DNA of 64,000 nt. It comes from Ignavibacteria bacterium (GTDB lineage: Bacteria > Bacteroidota > Ignavibacteria > Ignavibacteriales > Ignavibacteriaceae). Below are positions 1,080 through 5,033 of the stretch, one piece after another; position 1 is the stretch's first letter, and every line of letters starts with the position of its first letter. Made by a program: the position numbers and the translations under genes. Under the pieces are notes generated by a model. That model saw nothing but the letters and a program-made list of their open reading frames with translations, was not told where the DNA came from and did no database searches. Location: positions 1-64,000 of the forward strand of contig JAUXVN010000001.1 of the NCBI GenBank assembly GCA_030684555.1, given 5' to 3'.

Positions 1080-3038
1080 TTGTACAACTTTCGTTTTATA
1101 CATTTATTTTTTCTATCTATTATTCTTGTGCTGTCACTCAGCGATACTGGAACAGCCCGTGTTTTAGGTGATTCGCTATCTGCAAAAGAATATAGACTCG
1201 AGAATATCATTGTAACTTCCAACCGTTTTAAAACATCTGTTACTGAATCCCCCACCAAAATTGAAGTCATTGATATCAATCAAATAAAAAACAGCAACGG
1301 TTTTCGGCTTCCGGAAATATTGAAAAATTCTAATTCGGTTTTTATTAAATCTTATGGATTAACACCACAATTGCAATCGATTTCAATTAACGGATTAGGT
1401 GCCGAACATACTCTCGTTTTACTTGATGGAGTAAGATTAAATTTTTATCAAAACTCTATGTTTGATTTATCATTACTCCCAAAAGAAAATATTGAGCGAA
1501 TCGAAATAATCAGCAGCGGAGCAAGTGCGATTTACGGAAGTGAAGCCATGAGCAGTATTATAAATATAATTTCTAAAAATGGATTTAAAGGTTCTGATCA
1601 TCTTTTATTACGGTATGATGCACTAATTTCTAAAGGTTCGTTTAATACCAATAAATATTCTCTTGGGTTAAAGAGTATGGGAAAGAATCTTTTCCTAAAT
1701 TTATTTTTTAATAAGGAAGATTCAGACGGTGATTTTAACTACATTTTCCGGAATGGAGATGAATCTATCTCAAAAAAAAGGGAGATTTCTTCATACAAGA
1801 TTTATGATGTTGGGTTGCAGGTTCACTACATAATCGACAAAAAACAATTGGTGAAATTTTTCTCAAGTTATAATAATCACAATAAGCAAATCCCCGGAAT
1901 TGAAACGGGGAATAAGCCTTCAATCTCAAATCAACTTGATAAAAACTGGAGTAACAATATTGTTTATGAAAATTTTCTTTCAGAAAATATTTCATGGAAA
2001 TCTAATTTAAATTTTCAAAACAACTTGCTCCATTATGAAGTTAAACCAATACTAAACAGTTTTTACAAAAATTTAGTTTACAATAGCGGGAACGAGATTT
2101 CCATAAAAAATGGAATCGCAAATTTAATAACCGGTTATAATTTTGTTCATGCCGTTTTAGAGAGTAATGATACAGAAAATGGAGTTAAGAGAAATCAACA
2201 CAGTATTTACCTACTCTCAGAGACAGAACTATTTCAAGGATTCAAACTATTCCCATCACTTCGTTCTGATTTTATAAGTGATTTAGATAAAAATATTATT
2301 ACTTATAAAGTCGGAATAAATTACCGACCGTTAAAAGATGTGCAGCTCAACCTTCGTGCAAATGCGGGAAAGAATTTCAGAGCACCTACATTTAATGATT
2401 TATACTGGAAAGAATCGGGAAACAAATCGCTTAAACCGGAATATTCAAATAATTATGAAACGGGAATTGTTTATTCATTTCATAATTATTTAAGTGGGAT
2501 GATAGATGTTAACTACACTTACGTTGAGGCAAAAGATAAAATCGTCTGGCAGCCTCAGCGTAATTTAATTTGGAGACCAAATAACGTAGCAAAATCGCTT
2601 TCGAGAAGTGTTAATATCTCCGGTTCTTTATCAAAGAATCTCTCTTCTGAATTGATTATTAAATCCGGAGTTGGTGTTTCATTTACAAATTCAAGAAAAA
2701 CAAGTTCATTATATCCCGGTGATCCGACTTATGATAAACTCTTTCCATATATCCCTCTTCAGAGTTATAAGGGGAATCTATCAATTCAACATTCGATAAT
2801 TTCTTTCAATTTGTTTTATACTTATTCGGGCGAAAGATTTTCCGATTATGAAAATAAAAACAAGTTAGAACCTTATAGAATCTGGGATGCGAATATTTCG
2901 GTTACTTCAAAATATTTCGGTCAGTTTGTTACTCTCCGATTTGAAGTGAACAACATTTTTAACAGTGACTATTTTGTTATATCGGGTTATCCGATGCCTT
3001 TAAGAAATTTTACAATAACTTTTTCATTAAACAATTAG
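1080..3038 (+). CDS. btuB: TonB-dependent outer-membrane receptor, BtuB-like (cobalamin uptake)
   Basis: Outer-membrane beta-barrel of about 652 aa that should import cobalamin using TonB energy. A signal peptide (about 1-25) is followed by a TonB-box-like stretch (LENIIVTSNR), a plug domain (about 35-160, with VLLDGVRLN and RIEIISSGASAIYGSEA), and a barrel of alternating strands to the C-terminus. No ATG lies near the start. TTG at 1080 is chosen because AAAAGGGA precedes it by about 8 nt; an in-frame TTG at 1050 is less well placed. The B12 riboswitch just upstream and the BtuG-like gene 12 nt downstream make cobalamin the likely substrate. Its length is close to E. coli BtuB (~600 aa). Confidence 0.88.
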   Translation: MYNFRFIHLFFLSIILVLSLSDTGTARVLGDSLSAKEYRLENIIVTSNRFKTSVTESPTKIEVIDINQIKNSNGFRLPEILKNSNSVFIKSYGLTPQLQSISINGLGAEHTLVLLDGVRLNFYQNSMFDLSLLPKENIERIEIISSGASAIYGSEAMSSIINIISKNGFKGSDHLLLRYDALISKGSFNTNKYSLGLKSMGKNLFLNLFFNKEDSDGDFNYIFRNGDESISKKREISSYKIYDVGLQVHYIIDKKQLVKFFSSYNNHNKQIPGIETGNKPSISNQLDKNWSNNIVYENFLSENISWKSNLNFQNNLLHYEVKPILNSFYKNLVYNSGNEISIKNGIANLITGYNFVHAVLESNDTENGVKRNQHSIYLLSETELFQGFKLFPSLRSDFISDLDKNIITYKVGINYRPLKDVQLNLRANAGKNFRAPTFNDLYWKESGNKSLKPEYSNNYETGIVYSFHNYLSGMIDVNYTYVEAKDKIVWQPQRNLIWRPNNVAKSLSRSVNISGSLSKNLSSELIIKSGVGVSFTNSRKTSSLYPGDPTYDKLFPYIPLQSYKGNLSIQHSIISFNLFYTYSGERFSDYENKNKLEPYRIWDANISVTSKYFGQFVTLRFEVNNIFNSDYFVISGYPMPLRNFTITFSLNN

Positions 3039-3050
3039 AAAGGAAATAAT

Positions 3051-4361
3051 ATGAGAATATTAATAGTTACGATATTCTATCTTCTTCAATTTTCATTGAG
3101 TATTCATGCACAAAATCTAAGCAAAGTATATGTGCTTTCAGAAGGAGGTTTTTCACCGGCTTCTTCAAAACTATCATTGTTGGATTTAAATAATAATTCA
3201 TTTCAAGGAAGTATTTTCAATCCGGGACAATTGGGATTATATCCGGACGGAATGATTCTCCATGAAAATTATCTATACATTCTTGAACAGGGTAATTACG
3301 GCGGGAGCGGAAAAATTTTCAAACTTGATACAAACGGGACGGTTATTAATTCAGCCTCTGTCGGAACAAACCCTTATTCTTTGGCGATTTCAAATTCTAA
3401 AATTTATATAACTAATGGTTCGATAGGCAAAGTTTCAGTTTTAAGTTTAACAGATTTCACATTGTTAAAAGAGATAACTGTCGGTGTTTATCCGCAGGAA
3501 ATAATCGCATATCAAAACCAGGTATTTATTGCCAATACAAGTTTTTGGGGAGGAGCATCTGATTCAACCATAACAGTAATTGATGCTCTTTCCGATTCCA
3601 TTATAAATACTCTTATCGTAAAAAAAGATCCTTCTGCATTAGCAATTTCAAATGATGGATTTTTATTAGTTGGCTGCCCGGGAGATGTTGAAACAGGTAG
3701 AATATTTAAGTTTAATCCCAATGATTTTTCATTAATTGATACTTATTCAATTTCCGCTGGAGGATTTTCAAAGGATATCAGTCTGGACAAAGTTAATGGT
3801 GATATTTATTTTATTGCATATTCAAATGATATTGTTAAAATGGACTTACAGAATAAATCTTCGAGTATCATAGTTACTTCAGTATTTCCAATAAATTACT
3901 TTTACGGTTATGCTTTCGATTATATTAATCAAAAACATTATTTACTTGACGCTAATGACTTTGTGGCAAGCGGTGAATTACTTGTATATAATAATGCCGG
4001 AGTTCAACAACAAAATTTTGCAACCGGTGTAGCTCCACGAAGAGTACTTCTCAAGTATAATGAATCTGTATCTTCTGTTAAGAATGAAGTTTCAACGAAA
4101 TCATTTTCACTTGAACAAAATTATCCGAATCCTTTTAATCCTACTACAAATATCAGTTGGCAGATGTCATCAACAAATCATGTTTCTCTAAAAGTTTTTG
4201 ACCTCCTGGGAAATGAGATAATTACTTTAGTTGATGAAGTTAAAAATTCGGGTCATCATTCAATTCAGTTTAACGGTAAGGGATTGAGCAGCGGTGTTTA
4301 TTTTTATGTAATTAAATCAGGTAATTACTCGGAGAAACGGAAAATGATTCTGCTTTATTAA
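3051..4361 (+). CDS. BtuG-like surface beta-propeller with T9SS sorting domain
   Basis: Secreted 436-aa protein. It has a signal peptide (1-20, cleavage before QNLSK) with no lipobox cysteine. A YVTN/DUF5074-type beta-propeller follows (about 25-335), opening with VYVLSEGGFSP and repeating blade motifs such as VGTNPYSLAIS, VGVYPQEIIA and KKDPSALAIS. A type A T9SS C-terminal domain fills 352-436 (SLEQNYPNPFNP, GVYFYVIKSG). In Bacteroides, BtuG is a DUF5074-like propeller lipoprotein that binds B12 very tightly and caps BtuB. Here the same kind of propeller sits directly behind a riboswitch-controlled receptor but carries a T9SS signal. The B12-binding role is inferred from fold and context. 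SD AGAAAGGA lies 6-8 nt before the ATG. Confidence 0.8.
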   Translation: MRILIVTIFYLLQFSLSIHAQNLSKVYVLSEGGFSPASSKLSLLDLNNNSFQGSIFNPGQLGLYPDGMILHENYLYILEQGNYGGSGKIFKLDTNGTVINSASVGTNPYSLAISNSKIYITNGSIGKVSVLSLTDFTLLKEITVGVYPQEIIAYQNQVFIANTSFWGGASDSTITVIDALSDSIINTLIVKKDPSALAISNDGFLLVGCPGDVETGRIFKFNPNDFSLIDTYSISAGGFSKDISLDKVNGDIYFIAYSNDIVKMDLQNKSSSIIVTSVFPINYFYGYAFDYINQKHYLLDANDFVASGELLVYNNAGVQQQNFATGVAPRRVLLKYNESVSSVKNEVSTKSFSLEQNYPNPFNPTTNISWQMSSTNHVSLKVFDLLGNEIITLVDEVKNSGHHSIQFNGKGLSSGVYFYVIKSGNYSEKRKMILLY

Positions 4362-4499: not shown

Positions 4500-5033
4500 A
4501 TGAAAGAGAAAATTTCTTCAAAAAAGTTTTTGTTAATGACAGTGTTATTACTTGCTGCTGCATTTTCAAGGTTCATCCCCCATCCACCAAACTTTGCGCC
4601 TATAGCAGCAATGGCACTTTTCAGTGGTGCATATTTCAGCGATAAACGGATTGCATTTTTATTACCGATTTTTGCAATGTTTCTTTCTGATCTTTTCATT
4701 GGTTTGCATGAAGGTATGTGGTTTGTATATATCGGTTTTGCATTGATTGTAGGAATTGGATTTCTTCTTCAAAATAGAATTAAAGCTAAGAATGTTCTTC
4801 TTGCATCACTTTCTGCTTCCGTTGCATTTTTTGTAATTACGAATTTTGGTGTTTGGATTATGGGTTTATATTACCCAACAAACCTTGCCGGATTAGCACA
4901 ATCATACATCGCAGCTATTCCATTTTTCCATAATGCAATACTCGGAGATTTAGTTTATTCAGGTTTGTTATTCGGTGTTTATGAATTAGCAAAACGAAAA
5001 GTGCCTGAGTTGATTCCGGTAGAAGTAAAATAA
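4500..5033 (+). CDS. DUF6580-like integral membrane protein, putative B12 transport component
   Basis: A 177-aa protein with about five to six TM helices. The N-terminal block FSRFIPHPPNFAPIAAMALF and the later LPIFAMFLSDLFIG and FHNAILGDLVYSGLLFG look like the DUF6580 family, annotated as putative transport proteins and resembling ECF-transporter S components. It follows the B12 receptor and BtuG-like genes after 138 nt, so it may carry cobalamin or a precursor across the inner membrane; this is inference. The 4362-4499 spacer may contain its own weak promoter (TATATTTTG around 4412-4421, spacing imperfect). No ECF or BtuCD ATPase gene is nearby. Confidence 0.65.
   Translation: MKEKISSKKFLLMTVLLLAAAFSRFIPHPPNFAPIAAMALFSGAYFSDKRIAFLLPIFAMFLSDLFIGLHEGMWFVYIGFALIVGIGFLLQNRIKAKNVLLASLSASVAFFVITNFGVWIMGLYYPTNLAGLAQSYIAAIPFFHNAILGDLVYSGLLFGVYELAKRKVPELIPVEVK

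Follow-up and report, generated by a model that had tools for sequence, protein, structure and literature searches.

Why should a β-propeller gene that stands directly behind the gene for a BtuB-like receptor, under a cobalamin riboswitch, end in a sorting domain of the type IX secretion system (T9SS)? BtuG has been reported to be exclusive to Bacteroidetes and nearly always to carry a lipobox together with a surface-export signal (PMC6143338). The gene at 3051–4361 is located in the window, the stretch of 64,000 nucleotides of Ignavibacteria bacterium DNA that we analysed, whose first base is also that of a 136-kb contig in a 4.34-Mb genome (99.97% complete). Its product is probably a BtuG, a surface lid of BtuB that captures corrinoids and is delivered by T9SS; corrinoid binding, the complex with BtuB, export and processing, and retention are the parts of this reading that we infer.

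The first-pass annotation of this DNA had placed the propeller gene 12 bp downstream of a riboswitch-controlled BtuB-like receptor. This arrangement was confirmed by the riboswitch match, the receptor end at 3038 and the next start at 3051, and a genome scan identified the riboswitch as the sole cobalamin riboswitch of the 4.34-Mb genome. The gap between receptor and propeller genes contains AAAGGAAATAAT, a fair ribosome site. The propeller gene therefore lies next to btuB under a cobalamin riboswitch, the setting expected of btuG, and is followed after 138 bp by a gene for a DUF6580 membrane protein (Table 1). A sequence scan revealed no terminator-like sites between the receptor, propeller and DUF6580 genes, and promoter-like matches between them did not exceed the chance frequency. 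No clear expression-platform hairpin was seen 3' of the aptamer (z −0.24). In the nearest named relative, an Ignavibacteriaceae MAG, the propeller is 70% identical and the gene order is alike.

Table 1 Coordinates of features of the B12 locus within the window
Feature	Position	Strand	Evidence
Cobalamin riboswitch aptamer, RF00174	787–969	+	cmscan 117 bits (cut-off 31.5), E 1.1e-28
BtuB-like TonB-dependent receptor	1080–3038	+	PF00593/PF07715; TIGR01779 163.9 bits; BtuB1 of B. theta E 9e-31
12-bp gap, ribosome-site-like AAAGGA	3039–3050	+	Sequence
Signal peptide, residues 1–20, predicted cut SIHA/QN, without lipobox cysteine	3051–3110	+	Sequence
BtuG-type β-propeller, residues 21–338	3111–4064	+	Profile search, AlphaFold, VIA-align
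Flexible linker, residues 339–350	4065–4100	+	pLDDT <50 at model residues 319–330
Type A T9SS sorting domain, residues 358–433	4122–4349	+	PF18962 E 6.6e-12; TIGR04183 41.8 bits, cut-off 23
DUF6580 membrane protein, candidate inner-membrane cobamide transporter	4500–5033	+	PF20221 199.5 bits

The receptor is composed of a TonB plug and barrel. The top NCBIfam model for it was TIGR01779 (TonB-B12), at a score under the model's cut-off of 599.7, and its closest solved structures were BtuB1, BtuB2 and BtuB3 of B. theta followed by BtuB of E. coli. By its solved relatives, it is thus a TonB-dependent protein nearest to cobalamin receptors. Trp498 of the receptor aligns with Tyr538 of BtuB3, the aromatic residue of loop EL8 that is thought to push B12 off BtuG (PMC10404256). 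Among the alignable receptors, this column holds Trp in all 11 that adjoin T9SS forms of the propeller and an aromatic residue in 24 of the 27 that adjoin lipoprotein BtuGs. The aligned aromatic is only suggestive and could partly reflect a motif common to such receptors.

In the 436-residue product of 3051–4361, a hydrophobic signal precedes the propeller, and a linker connects the propeller to a sorting domain of type A. The Sec signal peptide and its cleavage site were assigned by eye, and no cysteine, and hence no lipobox, is present close to the signal peptide. With the Por_Secre_tail match (PF18962) likewise above its cut-off, the protein combines the Sec signal and the sorting domain of T9SS type A cargo. 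The plain signal peptide and C-terminal sorting domain of the first-pass annotation are thus upheld by the sequence, PF18962 and TIGR04183. Its label of a DUF5074/YVTN-type propeller held only for the propeller: the protein had no match to Pfam DUF5074 at E ≤ 1, and a T9SS-tailed relative scored 26.5 bits, just below the cut-off of 27.2, so that DUF5074 was dropped as proof of family.

We then relied on structure models and profiles. In the AlphaFold model (mean pLDDT 91), residues 1–318 form the propeller, residues 319–330 a disordered linker and residues 332–416 a separate β domain. A search of solved structures with the single sequence returned BtuGs at E values of about 1e-6 to 3e-7, and a single archaeal propeller scored marginally better. 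A profile built from 27 relatives matched BtuG1, BtuG2 and BtuG3 across the whole propeller (E 2.8e-54 to 5.2e-49), the next propeller being the archaeal surface-layer protein 1l0q (E 6e-43). Foldseek with the predicted structure placed BtuG chains at ranks 1–15 and 17, with the B12-binding protein BtuK1 next. Superposition on the PDB with VIA-align put every BtuG entry on top, with Z scores of 33.3 to 36.5 (the highest to BtuG1) and rmsd values of 2.5–2.9 across approximately 300 residues, compared with 32.1 for the next chain. The model and this ranking indicate a seven-bladed propeller of the BtuG type, in agreement with the resemblance to Bacteroides BtuG proposed earlier. Propellers generally score high in fold searches, yet the ranking order obtained with the model is specific to BtuG; a shared fold is not proof of function. 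On the basis of profiles and predicted fold, we assign the protein to the BtuG family, as a variant rather than a typical member, since the missing lipobox is a trait of localisation and not of fold or ligand.

To what extent the ligand site is retained was examined by alignment of 59 sequences with BtuG2, in which loop 54–64 and loop β5A clamp the ligand as pliers would, with Trp194, Tyr239, Trp272, Tyr316 and Tyr335 lining or touching it (PMC10404256). Loop 54–64 corresponds to the motif SEGGF..GSSKL, the most conserved stretch, with Glu at column 55 in 58 of the 59 sequences and Gly at column 56 in all of them. Tyr316 corresponds to Tyr285 of the window protein and is Tyr in all nine T9SS forms, and aromatic residues are also retained at the positions of Tyr335 (Phe304) and Trp272 (Phe239). 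The β5A loop is deleted together with its ligand-contacting Tyr239, and Trp194 is not kept. Given that close lipoprotein relatives share these losses with the T9SS forms, they characterise the subclade rather than T9SS delivery. As far as the alignment allows, the pocket appears only partly conserved. Of the similar propellers BtuK1 and BtuK2, only the former binds B12 (PMC12751083); fold and context therefore do not prove B12 binding. Net charge, which might have pointed to electrostatic capture of the kind proposed for BtuG2, was uninformative: it was −9 for the window propeller and −16 for BtuG2, and near relatives were scattered around 0.

Given that the genome encodes the T9SS core components SprA and PorV, a C25 peptidase (PorU-type) located 1.3 kb from the latter as in porU–porV, and no fewer than 150 sorting domains of type A, the type IX route exists in this organism. 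We propose that, when B12 is low, the riboswitch would permit expression of btuB and btuG, both of which would be repressed when B12 is plentiful. BtuG would cross the inner membrane via Sec, with signal peptidase I cutting before Gln21, and the C-terminal sorting domain would direct it to the type IX translocon and across the outer membrane, where a PorU-type peptidase would remove that domain, as in the general T9SS scheme (PMC10202324). The propeller would then capture a corrinoid and cap BtuB, which would import the ligand on TonB energy. Retention at BtuB might be achieved by the BtuB–BtuG interface, by linkage of the newly formed C-terminus to surface lipopolysaccharide, or by both. In BtuB2G2, the lipid anchor and the N-terminal linker serve as a hinge (PMC10404256). 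Neither element is present in the window protein, which counts against the lid reading. Any tether of this protein would have to be C-terminal. Both ends of a propeller usually lie in the same blade, and a C-terminal tether might therefore act at about the same place. In several genomes of the same family, the spacing between riboswitch and DUF6580 is only 2.4 kb, which leaves space for BtuB but not for BtuG and thus indicates that BtuG is not essential to uptake.

The first-pass annotation had asked whether T9SS-tailed propellers follow cobalamin riboswitches in relatives, and a survey of 294 genomes of the class Ignavibacteria answered in the affirmative; the other checks suggested there that we ran likewise favoured its interpretation. 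A propeller match was found in 134 of the genomes, weak matches probably being generic propellers; BtuB adjoined the propeller in nearly all of 60 loci examined, T9SS forms were recurrent, and a cobalamin riboswitch was present in each of the 25 scanned loci with such forms. In a phylum-wide sample of 395 genomes, T9SS forms were also detected in six families outside Ignavibacteria, in nearly all cases directly 3' of BtuB. Most orthologues were lipoproteins. Among 112 complete unique BtuGs, 75 had a lipobox without a tail and 37 a T9SS tail without a lipobox, with none having both or neither; the loci were chosen for long open frames, so that 37:75 is not a frequency, but the mutual exclusion of lipobox and tail is independent of locus choice. 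The lipobox was called by a simple custom rule rather than by SignalP. One relative that apparently had neither anchor proved to carry an in-frame stop, behind which the tail is intact. From the mature N-terminus to the propeller, the spacer had a median length of 5 residues in T9SS forms versus 17 in lipoproteins, as expected if the tether has moved to the other end.

The survey also revealed several variant loci. In two genomes (G159 and G193), a T9SS BtuG and a lipoprotein BtuG lie approximately 0.9–1 kb apart in one B12 locus (L040 and L044), which allows both delivery routes to be compared within one cell. Six loci of close lipoprotein relatives in one family (f8) harbour a corrinoid adenosyltransferase gene, recognised from sequence, between btuB and the gene for the lipoprotein BtuG, a context in favour of the BtuG assignment. 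Two others (L143 and L148) encode a lipoprotein BtuG fused to an extra domain of about 300 residues, which we presume to resemble the BtuG–BtuH fusion of B. theta BtuG1. At two loci read on the minus strand (L160 and L161), a lipoprotein BtuG is followed approximately 1.1 kb downstream by another propeller, which has a T9SS tail. A different family of the order has, directly 3' of BtuB and under a cobalamin riboswitch, a T9SS-tailed YVTN propeller that lacks the N-terminal motif of BtuG (L090:7013-8419) and is possibly an independent recruit.

To trace the change of anchor, we constructed a class tree of 62 rows with IQ-TREE. Nine T9SS forms clustered (87/78) within a clade of 33 rows (100/98), the remaining 24 rows of which are lipoproteins; this nesting suggests that the lipoprotein form gave way to T9SS delivery in Ignavibacteria. 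A larger, quick tree of 108 rows called for about five anchor changes, with well-supported branches forcing at least three; it was rooted at its midpoint, and a direction of change is read only for Ignavibacteria. The delivery route thus appears to have been swapped several times in the phylum, and transfer of BtuG between lineages is possible.

These data bear on other readings of the window protein. T9SS cargo may be either released or anchored (PMC10202324), and the sorting domain is silent on the fate of the protein. As it lacks a lipid anchor and has hardly any N-terminal spacer, the propeller might be freed into the medium after T9SS processing, to act as a diffusible, haemophore-like B12 catcher that returns loaded to BtuB. 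We consider this unlikely, if on indirect grounds: Bacteroides BtuG binds BtuB very tightly (PMC10404256) and may be held at once, and a single gene pair in one operon fits a 1:1 lid. The broader picture, in which several lineages possess T9SS-secreted BtuG and in some of them a released 'cobalophore' brings B12 back to BtuB as the vitamin counterpart of haemophores, is similarly improbable. The losses at the ligand site, where two of the five named ligand-contacting aromatic residues are gone, one of them with its entire loop, would also suit a BtuG-derived propeller that no longer binds corrinoids and assists BtuB only in structure or gating, a loss for which BtuK2 provides a precedent (PMC12751083). 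Against this stand the high conservation of the N-terminal ligand loop and of the Tyr316 column, as well as the lasting linkage to riboswitch and BtuB, and we regard a non-binding partner as quite improbable.

YVTN propellers are common and sorting domains abundant in this genome, so that an ordinary T9SS-tailed propeller could in principle have come to lie behind BtuB by chance. The synteny is conserved across many genera and several classes, however, the likeness in both sequence and fold is specific to BtuG, and the genome contains just one other propeller match, which is weak and partial (E 3.6e-4). We judge this explanation hardly credible and rejected it on the synteny and profile evidence. 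A surface lid of BtuB delivered by T9SS is therefore the reading that we prefer.

The third gene of the locus may provide the next step of uptake. A genome search detected no FecCD (BtuC-type) permease. Across the 294 class genomes, DUF6580 occurred without a strong FecCD match in 151, FecCD without DUF6580 in 117, both in 12 and neither in 14, counts that ignore relatedness. DUF6580 and a cobalamin riboswitch were at most 5 kb apart in 27 of the 53 genomes for which both positions were listed. The predicted fold of DUF6580 (pLDDT 79) had ECF S-components as its top match, a weak one (TM about 0.53, E 0.13). Given the near-exclusion with FecCD, the nearness to riboswitches and the weakly S-component-like fold, we propose DUF6580 as a candidate inner-membrane cobamide transporter, possibly a stand-alone importer. 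No mention of DUF6580 was found in our literature search, which covered open-access journal papers.

The first-pass annotation had also remarked that, if the protein binds B12, delivery of a vitamin-capture protein by T9SS was not known to be described. In line with this remark, searches of the same scope found no literature joining BtuG with T9SS, one paper in which BtuG and type IX secretion co-occur but are unlinked, and no T9SS cargo that catches a vitamin for a TonB-dependent receptor. The present findings link T9SS to vitamin uptake and extend the range of BtuG to Ignavibacteria and other classes. That a T9SS-tagged lid has appeared repeatedly, with no intermediate forms, suggests an exchangeable anchor, and T9SS BtuGs constitute a natural experiment on the requirements for the hinge.

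Among known systems, BtuG1, BtuG2 and BtuG3 of Bacteroides thetaiotaomicron (PMC6143338, PMC10404256; PDB 8blw, 8bmx, 8okv) share with the window protein the propeller fold, the N-terminal ligand loop, adjacency to btuB and the cobalamin riboswitch. They are lipobox lipoproteins with a surface-export signal and an N-terminal hinge linker, whereas the window protein, approximately 19% identical to them, has a plain signal peptide, a near-zero N-terminal linker and a shorter β5A loop, and its C-terminal part comprises a flexible linker and the T9SS sorting domain. With T9SS type A cargo (PF18962/TIGR04183), it shares the signal peptide, the C-terminal sorting domain and the presence of SprA, PorV and a PorU-type peptidase in the genome. 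BtuK1 of B. theta (PDB 9s6c, PMC12751083), which binds B12, is a propeller with a fold related to that of the window protein (Z 28.6) but is a lipoprotein and is further away than BtuG in both sequence and fold.
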